Shown piece by piece: positions 13,346 to 17,542 of a stretch of DNA of 64,000 bases. Made by a program: the position numbers and the translations under genes. The notes under the pieces are model-generated. The model did not search any database and had not been told where the DNA came from. It saw only the letters and a program-made list of their open reading frames with translations. The stretch is from Candidatus Rokuibacteriota bacterium (GTDB lineage: Bacteria; Methylomirabilota; Methylomirabilia; Rokubacteriales; CSP1-6), in the NCBI GenBank assembly GCA_016866775.1, contig VGLJ01000007.1, forward strand, positions 1-64,000, in the 5' to 3' direction. Positions within the stretch are counted from its first letter, which is position 1. Each line of letters begins with the position of its first letter.

Positions 13346-14130
13346 GCGCCGCCCTTCGCGCGCGCCTGCTGCAGCATCTCGATGAGGACCGTGCGGCTCT
13401 CGCCGGCCGTCGTCACCTCCCGCGGGAATGCGATCCGCACGCTGTGGCGCCGGTCGCCGTGCGTCACGCGCAGCTTGAACCCGAGCCGATCGACGCTCGT
13501 CATCACCGCCTCGTCGGCCTCGACATTGCCGAACACGCGCGCGTAGGCGACGAGCGCGTCGGCGTGGTCCTGATTCATGTGGGTGACGATGCCGCCCGCG
13601 ACGTCGGCGAGCGGATCCGGCTCGGCCGCCGCGTAGCCCGCCGCGGTCACCCAGTCCATCGCCGCGAAGCCGCCGACGAAGTACACGTCGGTGACGTCGA
13701 GCCGCCAGAACGCGAAGTCGTCGAAGTCGACCCAGTAGCGCGCGCTCTCGTGGCGCGCGAGGTACGCCGCGCGCGCGGCCGCGCGCGTGTCGGCGGCGAC
13801 CGGGCGCGCCTCGCCCATCAGCGTGACGCGTCCGGCGGCGAGCGGATCCCCCGCCCAGTCGGGCTGCGCCACCAGCAGGCTCGCGCGCGCGTCCCCCTGG
13901 AGGTTCTGCGTGTGCATCGCCATGGTGCTGATCAGCAGCAGCGGGTTACCGCGCGCGTCGACCGCGTACGGCATGATCGACGCGAAGGGGTGCCCGGGAT
14001 GGCGGCGCGAGAGCGTGGCGAGCGTGCCCGCGCGTCCGAGATGCACGAGCGTGCGCGCGCGCTCCGCGTACGTGGGCTCGGGAACGGGCGGCGTATCGGA
14101 CGGGGATGCGGGACCGGCGTGGCGGTTCAC
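13342..14130 (-). CDS. HugZ-like protein (PNPOx-type flavin/haem domain plus DUF2470)
   Basis: 262 residues. Residues ~20-165 resemble the split-barrel domain of pyridoxamine-phosphate-oxidase-like proteins (ARTLVHLGRAGTLATLS, HPFASIMPYAVDARGNPLLLIS, W.VDFDDFAFWRLDV). The C-terminal ~85 residues (GGIVTHMNQDHADALVAYAR...MTSVDRLGFKLRV) are the DUF2470 segment found in HugZ haem oxygenases and in plant glutamyl-tRNA reductase-binding proteins. Haem binding is plausible through H-x-N-Q-D-H. It overlaps both neighbours by 4 bases. Confidence 0.8.
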   Translation of the reverse strand: MNRHAGPASPSDTPPVPEPTYAERARTLVHLGRAGTLATLSRRHPGHPFASIMPYAVDARGNPLLLISTMAMHTQNLQGDARASLLVAQPDWAGDPLAAGRVTLMGEARPVAADTRAAARAAYLARHESARYWVDFDDFAFWRLDVTDVYFVGGFAAMDWVTAAGYAAAEPDPLADVAGGIVTHMNQDHADALVAYARVFGNVEADEAVMTSVDRLGFKLRVTHGDRRHSVRIAFPREVTTAGESRTVLIEMLQQARAKGGA

Positions 14131-15191
14131 AACGACGACTGCTGCCGGACGAACCGGGTGGCGTCGAACTCCTCGGCCACGCGCTGATCGTTCTCGAGCA
14201 GGGCCTGCGCGTCGACCGTCGCGAACTCGATCGCGCCCATGTCGTCGAACGCCTTTCGCACGCGCGGCCCCCAGAGCCCGATGTCCTTCACGGTCGGCAC
14301 GATGCGGCTGAAGAGCCGCTTACGGAACATCGCCATCTGCTGCGAGCTCATCGCGGCCTCGATCGCTTCCTTCACCGGTAGCCCGAGGTTCTCCCACAGC
14401 TCCTTCTGGTTGAAGCGGTCACGCATCTGGTAGCAGGCTTCGACCACGAACTCCTCGCGCTCGTCGCGCTCCGCGTCGGTGAGCTGCGGATAGTAGTCGC
14501 GCAGCGCGAGCCGGCCGAAGGCCACGTGGCGCGCCTCGTCCTGCATCACGTAGGCGTTCACCGACGCGGCGAGCCGGTTCTTCGCCTGGTCCCGGATGCG
14601 CTGGAAGGCGGCGAGCGCCAGGCCTTCGATCAGCACCTGCATGCCGAGGTACGTCATGTCCCAGCGACGGTCGGTGAGCACGACCTCGAGCAGCGCCTTC
14701 AGTCCCGGAGTGATCGGGTAGGCGAGGCCGAGCTTGTCGTGAAGGAGGCGCGCGTACGCCTCGACGTGCCGCGCCTCGTCCATGACCTGCGTGGCCGCGT
14801 AGAACTTCGCGTCGAGGTCCGGCACGGTCTGGACGATCCGGGCCGCGGCCATGAGCGCGCCCTGCTCGCCGTGCATGAACTGGGACAGCGACTGCGCCTG
14901 CTGGTGGTGACGGAGCTTGACCCGCTCTTGCTTCGTCATCCGGTCCCACAGCGCGGAGCCGAAGATCGGGATCGCGCGGTCGTCGAGCTCCTGCGGGTTC
15001 TCGGGATCGAGATCGATCGACCAGTCGATCCGCTCGGCCGCGTCCCATTGCTGCTTCTTGCCCTTGTCGTAGAGCGCCAGGAGCTTCTCGCGCTCGTCCT
15101 CGTACTCCCACGTGAACGACGTCTGGGTCTCCCCCTGGAGGGTCCACTGCGTCTGCTCGACCGGCAGCTGGTAGCGGTACATGGTCGCCAT
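14127..15191 (-). CDS. Ferritin-like diiron protein (R2/AurF-type fold)
   Basis: 354 residues. Diiron ligands are visible as two carboxylate-helix motifs: E in HGEQGALMAAARIV with DEARHVEAYARLL, then E in LIEGLALAAFQ with DEARHVAFGRLAL. This E...ExxH repeat binds two irons and activates oxygen in ribonucleotide reductase R2-like oxidases and AurF-type N-oxygenases. The substrate is unknown. A much longer open frame upstream is ignored because GAGGAG lies just before the ATG at 15191 and conservation begins there. It is the first gene of an operon with the HugZ-like and YeeE genes. Confidence 0.8.
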   Translation of the reverse strand: MATMYRYQLPVEQTQWTLQGETQTSFTWEYEDEREKLLALYDKGKKQQWDAAERIDWSIDLDPENPQELDDRAIPIFGSALWDRMTKQERVKLRHHQQAQSLSQFMHGEQGALMAAARIVQTVPDLDAKFYAATQVMDEARHVEAYARLLHDKLGLAYPITPGLKALLEVVLTDRRWDMTYLGMQVLIEGLALAAFQRIRDQAKNRLAASVNAYVMQDEARHVAFGRLALRDYYPQLTDAERDEREEFVVEACYQMRDRFNQKELWENLGLPVKEAIEAAMSSQQMAMFRKRLFSRIVPTVKDIGLWGPRVRKAFDDMGAIEFATVDAQALLENDQRVAEEFDATRFVRQQSSL

Positions 15192-15405: not shown

Positions 15406-16056
15406 ATGACCCTCAAAGAGACGCTCGACGGGATGAGAGCCGCCAGCAAGGCGCGCATTCCCCCGGAGACCCAGGCCGTCATGCAGCGAGCCATCGAGGA
15501 CGTTCGGGCCTCGGGCATCCTGGACCGCGTGGTCAAGACCGGGCAACGCGCGCCGGACTTCACGCTGCCGAACACCGAGGGGCACGAGACCAGCCTCTCG
15601 ACTCTTCTGGGCAAGGGCCCCGTGGTTCTGAGCTTCTTTCGAGGTCGCTGGTGACCGTACTGCAATGCAGAGCTGGCAGCTCTGCAGGCCGCGCTTCCGG
15701 CGATCGCCGCGACCGGCGCGAGTCTCGTGGTCATCTCGCCGCAGGTTCAACGTAGTCGACGCGAGACCGGCAACGAGCCCGCGGTGACGTTCGAGGTGCT
15801 GCGTGACCGCGGCAACGAAGTCGCGCGGCGCCACGGCATCGTCCACGAGCTCCCCGACGACCTCCGGGAGACCTACGGCAAGTTCAACATCGATCTCCCC
15901 GCGATCAACGGCGACGGCACCTGGACCCTGCCCATGCCCGCCCGCTTCGTGATCGATCGCGCGGGCATCGTACGTTCGGTGGACGCCGACCCGGACTACA
16001 CGCAGCGGCCCGAGCCCGACGCCACCGTGGCGGTGCTCCGCGGCCTGGGCGCATAG
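15406..16056 (+). CDS. Peroxiredoxin-like (AhpC/TSA) selenoprotein, Sec83
   Basis: 216 residues if the TGA at 15652-15654 is read as selenocysteine. Frame and family match continue through it: FFRGRW-U-PYCNAELAALQ, where relatives have FYRGxWCPYCNxEL. Sec83 replaces the catalytic cysteine and C86 gives a U-x-x-C redox pair. The upstream part (RAPDFTLPNTEG..SLSTLLGKGPVVLSF) and downstream part (LVVISPQ, YGKFNIDLP, ARFVIDRAGIVRS) form a complete thioredoxin fold. GGAGGAA precedes the ATG. A hairpin lies directly after the UGA. It likely reduces peroxides. It converges with the AhpD-like selenoprotein gene. Confidence 0.9.
15666..15686 (+). promoter_or_regulatory. Bacterial SECIS-like hairpin of the peroxiredoxin-like gene
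   Basis: A perfect 9-bp stem (TGCAGAGCT with AGCTCTGCA) carries a GGC loop. Exactly 20 bases lie between the UGA and the first loop base, and the loop opens with G. Both fit the bacterial SECIS rule (apical loop about 16-37 nt after UGA, G in the first two loop positions) for SelB-dependent insertion. The stem also encodes part of the conserved helix after UxxC. Confidence 0.75.
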
Positions 16057-16117: not shown

Positions 16118-16918
16118 TCACTGCGGAGGACGGATGTCCGACTCGATCTGCATGCCCTCGGAGAGCGTGTTCAAGGTCGTGTAGTGGTCGACGACGCCGA
16201 GCACCTCCAGAAGGTCCTGATCGGTATCGCCGGCGTGGCGCAGGATCTCCGCGTGGTGGTCGATCATGTACCGGCCGCGCCCGGCCATCGACACGCCGAG
16301 CGCGGTGCGCCGCTTGTCACGCGCGGAAAGGGCACCGTCGCTCATCAACGCGCGGTCCTTCCGCCAGGTCGCTTCGAGGTAGTGCGGGTTGCGCGCCAGG
16401 ATCCGCCAGAGCACCGGGACGTCGGCCACGCCGCTCGCGGTGCGCCACCATGCCGCGATCTCGTCGAGGAGCACGCGCACGGTGCCGTCGCTCTCTTTGA
16501 CCTCGATCGGCGCGATCAACGGCGAGCCTCGCGTGTCGAGGCCGAGCGCACCCGCCGTCGTCGCCATGGCTTTCGCGTGCTCCGTGACGCCCATCACCTC
16601 CGTCACGCCCGTTTCGTCGACACCGAGCCGCATCACGGCGGCGACGTGGGAGTCGATTCAGTAGTGGCACGCGTTCGCGACCGAGACGGCCGTGGCGATC
16701 AGCTCGCGCTGAAGCGGTGTGAACCGGCCACGCTGCATCAGCGCGCGCGAGCGGTTCCAGTTGGACTCGAGCAGGGCCGGCAGGTGCCCCATGCATCGCC
16801 AGATGTTCGACACGCTGGTGGCGCCGAAGACGCGCTGCTCGCGCGCGAGGATGGCGTCGAAGATCTCGCGCGTCTTCCCGGCCGCGCGGTCGGGATCGGG
16901 CAGTGGGATCGTCGTCAC
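16118..16918 (-). CDS. AhpD/carboxymuconolactone-decarboxylase-like selenoprotein, Sec87
   Basis: 266 residues if the TGA at 16660-16658 is selenocysteine. The active motif reads ANACHY-U-IDSH, so the family C-x-x-C-x3-H becomes C84-x-x-U87-x3-H91. The frame is unbroken to a stop at 16118. The protein is a tandem of two AhpD-like halves; the second keeps the helix pattern (RTALGVSMAGRGRYMIDHHAEILR) but has lost both catalytic cysteines. AhpD proteins supply electrons to peroxiredoxins, which fits the neighbour. Start ATG at 16918, divergent from the OsmC-like selenoprotein gene. Confidence 0.88.
16627..16642 (-). promoter_or_regulatory. SECIS-like hairpin of the AhpD-like gene
   Basis: GCCGC pairs with GCGGC around a six-base loop CGTGAT. 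A CAC/GTG pair outside a small internal loop extends the stem. The first loop base follows the UGA by 20 bases and the second loop base is G. This is the weakest of the three hairpins on stem length, but its position matches the other two exactly. Confidence 0.5.
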
Positions 16919-17032: not shown

Positions 17033-17542
17033 ATGGCGGATCAGGTGCCGGAAGGATTGAATCCCTCGGTCGAGAGCCGGCAGATCACGTTCGAGGCCGA
17101 TGTGAGCTCCGTGACGCCGTTCCTGAAGCTTGCCACCGCGCACAGGAACGGCGGCGGTCACATGACGTTCGCCTGCGACGAGGGCCCGAATCTCGGCGGC
17201 CTCGGCTCGGCGCCGACCCCGCTCATGTACTTCAGCGCCGCGCTCGCGTTCTGACTGATGACCCAGGTGTCCCGGTACGGGCACATGCTGAAGGTCGACG
17301 TGACGCGTATGACGATGCACGTGACGGCGCGGTTCAGGGTCGAAGGCTCGGTGCTCAAGGACACGATCCAGGGGGAGATGCTTGGGGCCGAGACGACGCT
17401 GGAGCTGGAGTCTCAGGCCGAGCCGGAGCGTGTCGCACGGGTGATCCGCAACGCCGAGCGCGGGTGCTTCGTCATGCAAGCGCTGCTCCGCCCGGTCGCG
17501 GTCACGACGCGGTCGCTGCTCAACGGCCGTCCGCTGTCCTGA
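17033..17542 (+). CDS. OsmC-like selenoprotein, Sec74
   Basis: 169 residues if the TGA at 17252-17254 is selenocysteine. The motif is PTPLMYFSAALAF-U-LMTQVSRY, where OsmC/Ohr relatives have FSAALAxCLMT with the peroxidatic cysteine. The resolving cysteine survives as C145 in NAERGCFVMQALLRP. The N-terminal part (FEADVSSVT...HMTFACDEGPNLGGLGSAPTP) and C-terminal part (MTMHVTARFRVEGSVL) complete the fold. Start ATG at 17033 with GGAAAGGA upstream. OsmC family proteins reduce organic hydroperoxides, usually with lipoyl or thiol partners. The stop lies 6 bases before a convergent helicase gene. Confidence 0.88.
17267..17284 (+). promoter_or_regulatory. SECIS-like hairpin with bulged T of the OsmC-like gene
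   Basis: GTG pairs with CAC and CCCG pairs with CGGG, enclosing a GTA loop. A single T at 17270 bulges from the 5' side, as does the functionally important bulged U of the E. coli fdhF SECIS. The first loop base comes 20 bases after the UGA and is a G. Confidence 0.7.

Follow-up and report, generated by a model that had tools for sequence, protein, structure and literature searches.

The window carries, on its minus strand, a gene for what is probably a two-repeat selenoprotein of the AhpD family, in which the repeat with selenocysteine (Sec) would be the active one and the second repeat would stand in for a protomer of the AhpD ring. The best reading is that of a Sec-dependent thiol peroxidase or reductase whose second half, as a pseudo-protomer, would let a trimer mimic the hexameric ring of AhpD. 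The layout is real and conserved, yet it amounts to a selenium-containing form of an arrangement that is known from ordinary AhpD enzymes.

All coordinates are positions in the 64,000-nt stretch of contig VGLJ01000007.1 (assembly GCA_016866775.1) that was analysed, here called the window. The source organism, of the Rokubacteria group, is a soil or groundwater bacterium. The features of the gene are as follows.

16118..16918, minus strand: two-repeat AhpD selenoprotein gene, with a GTG start at 16918 and a terminal TGA at 16120-16118
16658..16660, minus strand: UGA codon 87, read as Sec (same position in 23 of 23 aligned relatives; Sec machinery in the genome)
16625..16644, minus strand: bSECIS-type hairpin, with a 5-bp core (GCCGC/GCGGC) and a 6-nt loop (CGUGAU) that starts 20 nt after the UGA
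16535..16918, minus strand: N-terminal AhpD repeat, residues 1-128, with the complete relay E72, C84, Y86, U87, H91
16121..16534, minus strand: C-terminal AhpD repeat, residues 129-266, without Cys or Sec; the corresponding residues are R203, G215, Y217, M218, H222

Gene structure and reading frame

When TGA is taken as Sec, the frame runs for 266 codons from the GTG to the terminal TGA and contains a single internal TGA at codon 87, around which the first half of the protein reads C84-H-Y-U87-I-D-S-H91. An earlier, sequence-only reading of this DNA had proposed a C84-x-x-U87-x3-H91 motif in the first half, and the open frame with TGA as Sec bears this out; that reading also had the gene at 16118-16918, where it does lie, and left its minus-strand orientation unsaid. 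Ordinary annotation splits the gene at the UGA into fragments of 86 and 172 residues, and the two-repeat architecture is consequently missed. The feature is more than a chance arrangement, since the UGA falls on the same residue in 23 of 23 relatives and the profiles of the two halves match each other.

Evidence for selenocysteine at codon 87

The UGA at codon 87 almost certainly encodes Sec. In alignments, U87 coincides with the second Cys of the CxxC motif of the solved AhpD 2OUW and others. Orthologues of the gene (L001/L005, L002, and L003/L006; together with the window gene, group A) are 62–77% identical to it, have the UGA and the layout in common with it, and place the group in four of the 95 genomes of the phylum set. 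More distant two-repeat CxxU proteins (group B, or subfamily B; 24–31% identity in the alignment) occur in 36 genomes, including that of the source organism, and 40 of the 42 group B matches contain one UGA, the remaining two being partial and covering the C half only. In all, the UGA is kept in the three orthologues and in about 38 distant relatives from 36 genomes, and no Cys form was seen among these proteins in the 95 genomes. A scan of contigs for relatives returned matches from Rokubacteria/Methylomirabilota only, and a search of plasmids gave only weak CMD-family matches, most of which covered about half of the query.

The genome is equipped for Sec insertion, as SelA, SelB, SelD, and tRNA-Sec all score above their family cut-offs, and selB and selA adjoin the tRNA-Sec gene on contig C43. 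The selD gene of this genome (G000:C31:24695-25639, L052) has an in-frame UGA of its own. The source genome also holds a group B paralogue (G000:C8:75411-76220, L057:6412-7221) with the same layout, UGA position, and hairpin type. Further CxxU proteins of the AhpD type were found in related genomes (L025, L027, and L031), indicating that Sec occurs widely in AhpD-type proteins throughout the phylum.

That the UGA might be a genuine stop, left by gene decay or separating two genes, or else a sequencing error, would agree with the use of UGA as a normal stop codon in this genome and with the GTG that the frame downstream of it possesses. Against this, independent genomes share the UGA at this codon and have yielded no Cys form, the Sec machinery is complete, the hairpin described below is conserved and accompanied by a codon bias, and purifying selection acts on either side of the codon. 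A reading without Sec is therefore barely credible; a real stop, a pseudogene, and a pair of genes are each ruled out by the conserved UGA, the two-sided purifying selection, and the Sec machinery.

The bSECIS-type hairpin

All 23 genes, aligned without gaps, can form a hairpin whose 6-nt loop starts 20 nt past the UGA in each case. The group B version is typically CUGCAGC-CGGGAA-GCUGCAG, while the core in the window gene's group is GCCGC-CGUGAU-GCGGC; the stem thus comprises a 5-bp core in the window gene and 7 bp in most relatives. Across the 23-gene alignment, 93.2% of the pair cells are paired, nine cells are changed on both sides, and none of 500 shuffles did as well. The compensatory change exchanges an A-U for a C-G pair, and pairing of the stem breaks down when the partner strand is slid by one to three columns.

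Codon usage points in the same direction. Of the 19 group B genes, 17 have GCA as the Ala codon at UGA+6 and the other two have GCG, which gives a G-U pair; elsewhere in the same 19 genes, GCA accounts for 11 of 783 Ala codons. The third base of this codon is the 5' base of the compensatory pair. Together, the GCA bias and the pairing match the outcome expected from selection on an RNA stem, with the qualification that the sequences are related and not independent.

The bSECIS model asks for a loop of 3–9 nt, a stem of 4–16 bp, a G in the first two loop positions, and a distance of 16–37 nt from the UGA (PMC13188914), and the hairpin of the window gene fits these geometric limits of loop, stem, G position, and distance. 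Folded by itself, the window gene is predicted to form the hairpin from a 52-nt stretch and not from 40 nt; competing folds exist, and neither stretch is exceptional relative to shuffles. Within the four close orthologues, synonymous conservation of the SECIS stretch falls short of significance (8 of 13 versus 48 of 114 codons, p 0.24), so the case for a SECIS rests on the comparison across subfamilies.

Two AhpD repeats, one without a redox pair

Compared as profiles, the N and C halves match with a probability of 99.7 and an E-value of 1.6e-25 over 127 columns, relative to probabilities of 0.1–0.9 for five column-shuffled controls. AlphaFold models the full protein with a pLDDT of 95 and a pTM of 0.91, and predicts six helices in the N half (14-31, 38-43, 47-62, 68-81, 85-97, and 102-124) and six in the C half (145-162, 169-174, 178-192, 199-212, 216-228, and 233-256), the latter offset by 131 from the former. 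The single-domain AhpD 2OUW superposes on residues 131-266 of the full model with a Z score of 11.3 (1.8 Å over 132 residues), and it is again the best match when the C half is modelled alone (pLDDT 88.5; Z 14.3, 2.7 Å, 132 residues). Over the whole chain, the structural matches are 2Q0T (Z 20.3) and 6E8L, 2PRR, and 1KNC (Z 17–18), spanning 170–223 residues. The whole-chain fit to two-lobed AhpDs (Z 17–20) shows that the modelled lobes pack as they do in known single-chain AhpDs. The proposal that the second half keeps the AhpD fold is thus upheld by modelling and superposition of both the full protein and the isolated C half, and the converse possibility, a C half of some other fold, is ruled out by the two structure predictions.

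What differs between the halves is the catalytic equipment. The AhpD relay consists of Glu118, Cys130, His132, Cys133, and His137 in the Mycobacterium tuberculosis enzyme and of Glu36, Cys48, Tyr50, Cys51, and His55 in PA0269 (PMC3141380). In the first half, the relay E72, C84, Y86, U87, H91 is invariant in the 23 sequences and fits the pattern E-x11-C-x-(Y/H)-C/U-x3-H. In the second half, E72 is replaced by R203, C84 by G215, and U87 by M218, while Tyr217 and His222 are retained; His222 is kept in 22 of the 23 family members, and position 217 is Tyr or Phe in all of them. In group B, the five relay positions of the second half are mostly occupied by Glu, Ala or Thr at the first, Ser at the second, Phe or Tyr at the third, Gly at the fourth, and His at the fifth. 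None of the 23 proteins has the redox pair in its second half. The stretch GRGRYMIDHH, said to replace the cysteines in the second half, is indeed present at the homologous place. The further claim of that sequence-only reading, that this half has no catalytic residues, holds for the lost Glu, Cys, and Sec and is overstated otherwise, because a His and a Tyr are still there.

Both halves are under purifying selection, and the C half is the less constrained of the two. By the Nei-Gojobori method, dN/dS among four close genes is about 0.17–0.30 for the N half and 0.29–0.57 for the C half, and in pairs with the window gene the N halves are 73–84% and the C halves 54–70% identical, such that the C half evolves faster. 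In a phylogeny of the halves, A-N, A-C, B-N, and B-C each form a tight clade, without a firm branching order among the four; tree tests reject neither the union of all C halves (p 0.47) nor that of all N halves (p 0.33), and in the best tree the N and C halves of a subfamily group together with weak support (41/71 and 77/73). The phylogeny fits equally a lineage-specific internal duplication and an older one shared by groups A and B.

Genomic neighbourhood

The AhpD gene is the middle one of three Sec genes in a row, each of which can form a hairpin with its loop about 20 nt past the UGA. An AhpC/TSA-type peroxiredoxin-like gene at 15406-16056 on the plus strand is convergent with the AhpD gene; it has an in-frame UGA at 15652-15654 (GRWUPYC) and a 9-bp hairpin, the loop of which begins 20 nt past that UGA. 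Divergent from the AhpD gene, at 17033-17542 on the plus strand, is an OsmC-type gene with an in-frame UGA at 17252-17254 (SAALAFULMTQV), the product of which scores 165.4 bits against a cut-off of 95 for NF041052, "OsmC_like_Se". An AurF-like di-iron oxygenase gene (14127-15191, minus strand; PF11583, 2.2e-20) adjoins this cluster.

The peroxiredoxin-like and OsmC-like selenoproteins are candidate partners of the AhpD protein. Neither gene was found in the examined flanks of L001, L002, and L003, the L002 sequence starting about 100 bases upstream of the AhpD gene, and in L001 the orthologue sits behind an operon resembling a branched-chain amino-acid transporter. A conserved operon with the two neighbours is rejected on this ground, and the linkage cannot be used for assigning a partner. 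Just upstream of one group B gene lies a gene for a protein resembling the ferredoxin-thioredoxin reductase beta chain (L061:5707-6117; PF02943, 2.2e-23). Its product is a possible electron donor, and the linkage was not seen to be conserved.

Proposed mechanism and alternatives

By analogy with AhpD enzymology, Glu72 and His91 would activate Sec87, which would then attack a peroxide or the disulfide of a partner protein. Cys84 would presumably resolve Sec87 through a selenenylsulfide, and a cellular reductant would reopen the bond. AhpD relatives form hexameric or trimeric rings (PMC3141380). Judging from the packing of the lobes and the rings of these relatives, the second repeat may take over the part of the second protomer in every dimer of a single-domain AhpD ring, and three chains would thereby give a ring of six lobes with three Sec sites, not six. 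A structural second half had been suggested earlier, and it is the likeliest role for a modelled AhpD fold that lacks the redox pair.

It is conceivable, although unlikely, that the second half is instead a docking domain, the other role suggested in the earlier reading, and places a redox partner, such as the neighbouring Sec peroxiredoxin-like protein, at Sec87. In its favour are the conservation of this half, with purifying selection acting on it, and the AhpC/TSA-type protein with a WUPYC motif that is encoded next door; in M. tuberculosis, AhpC is the partner that AhpD serves (PMC3141380). The absence of both neighbours from the limited flanks of the orthologues and the faster evolution of the C half argue the other way. 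Ligand sensing is known for this kind of fold from the sestrins, which are AhpD-like and sense leucine. On that model, the Cys-less repeat could be a regulatory pocket or a second, non-redox site that couples Sec redox chemistry to ligand sensing or to a reaction like that of carboxymuconolactone decarboxylase (CMD); His222 and Tyr217, along with the Ser, Gly, Glu, and His of subfamily B, are the residues to which one would point, and we consider the idea very doubtful. A fully bifunctional protein, with a live CMD-like active site in the second half, is highly improbable. It would account for the near-universal His222, the aromatic residue at 217, and the Glu that many distant relatives also retain alongside a Ser and a Gly where Cys and Sec would stand, but the Glu has become Arg in the window gene's group, one member has Gln for the His, and no conserved gene neighbourhood linked to a substrate was seen. 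The pseudo-protomer role is the preferred reading of the second half.

Family assignment and comparison with known AhpD systems

The protein matches the Pfam CMD family, which includes AhpD, in two stretches (PF02627, 8.7e-23; 80.6 bits against a cut-off of 23), and it passes TIGR00778 (48.3 bits, cut-off 27.8). Its 64.7 bits for the TIGR01926 peroxidase-related enzymes fall below the cut-off of 81.8, and it is therefore not filed as a member, while it also scores below the cut-offs of the canonical AhpD model TIGR00777 (24.9 bits versus 191.95) and of the AhpD-related (seleno)protein model NF041238 (30.9 bits versus 175). The closest solved sequence is 2OUW (9.1e-15). Because the cut-offs of these three models are missed, we regard the protein as belonging to a subfamily that is uncatalogued but whose kind is already known, and not to a new kind. 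An apparently uncatalogued two-repeat CxxU subfamily, for which no full-length NCBIfam model scores above its cut-off, is hereby added to the Sec-rich Methylomirabilota/Rokubacteria, and a lineage in which UGA forms alone were seen lends itself to the questions of why Sec has not given way to Cys and what an inactive repeat does in an AhpD ring.

The suggestion that an internal duplication with one Sec-specialised half is a distinctive architecture does not survive comparison, as AhpDs of the TIGR01926 type have the same order of repeats and that of M. tuberculosis has the reverse order. Matched to the solved members 2OYO, 6K40, 2PFX, and 3C1L, the TIGR01926 profile aligns in two stretches, the second without CxxC; in these proteins, as in the window protein, an N-terminal CxxC (here CxxU) repeat is followed by a Cys-less C-terminal one. 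They differ from it in having about 180–195 residues and a shortened second repeat, whereas the window protein has 266 and a full second repeat. A review of selenoproteins lists a CxxU AhpD-like form under TIGR01926 (PMC13188914).

2OUW, from Rhodospirillum rubrum, shares the AhpD fold with the C half, and it aligns in sequence with the N half, including the same relay motif. Unlike the window protein, with its two repeats and CxxU, it has one repeat per chain and CxxC, and it is a hexamer of identical active subunits (PMC3141380). The trimeric AhpD of M. tuberculosis (1KNC, 1GU9), like the window protein, has two lobes in one chain and a single active motif, and superposes on it with a Z of about 17 over 170 residues; it differs in using Cys, in its catalytic hairpin, which lies in the C-terminal part (PMC3141380), and in sequence, with an identity of about 8–9%. 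U87 stands where that enzyme has Cys133 and PA0269 has Cys51, the second Cys of the active site. The best whole-chain match, 2Q0T, is a two-domain CMD-family protein of Burkholderia xenovorans that superposes over 223 residues at 16% identity. Finally, the CxxU proteins of subfamily B share the layout, the UGA position, and the hairpin of the window gene, and differ from it in their low identity and in a C half that in many of them keeps the Glu and has Ser and Gly for Cys and Sec.
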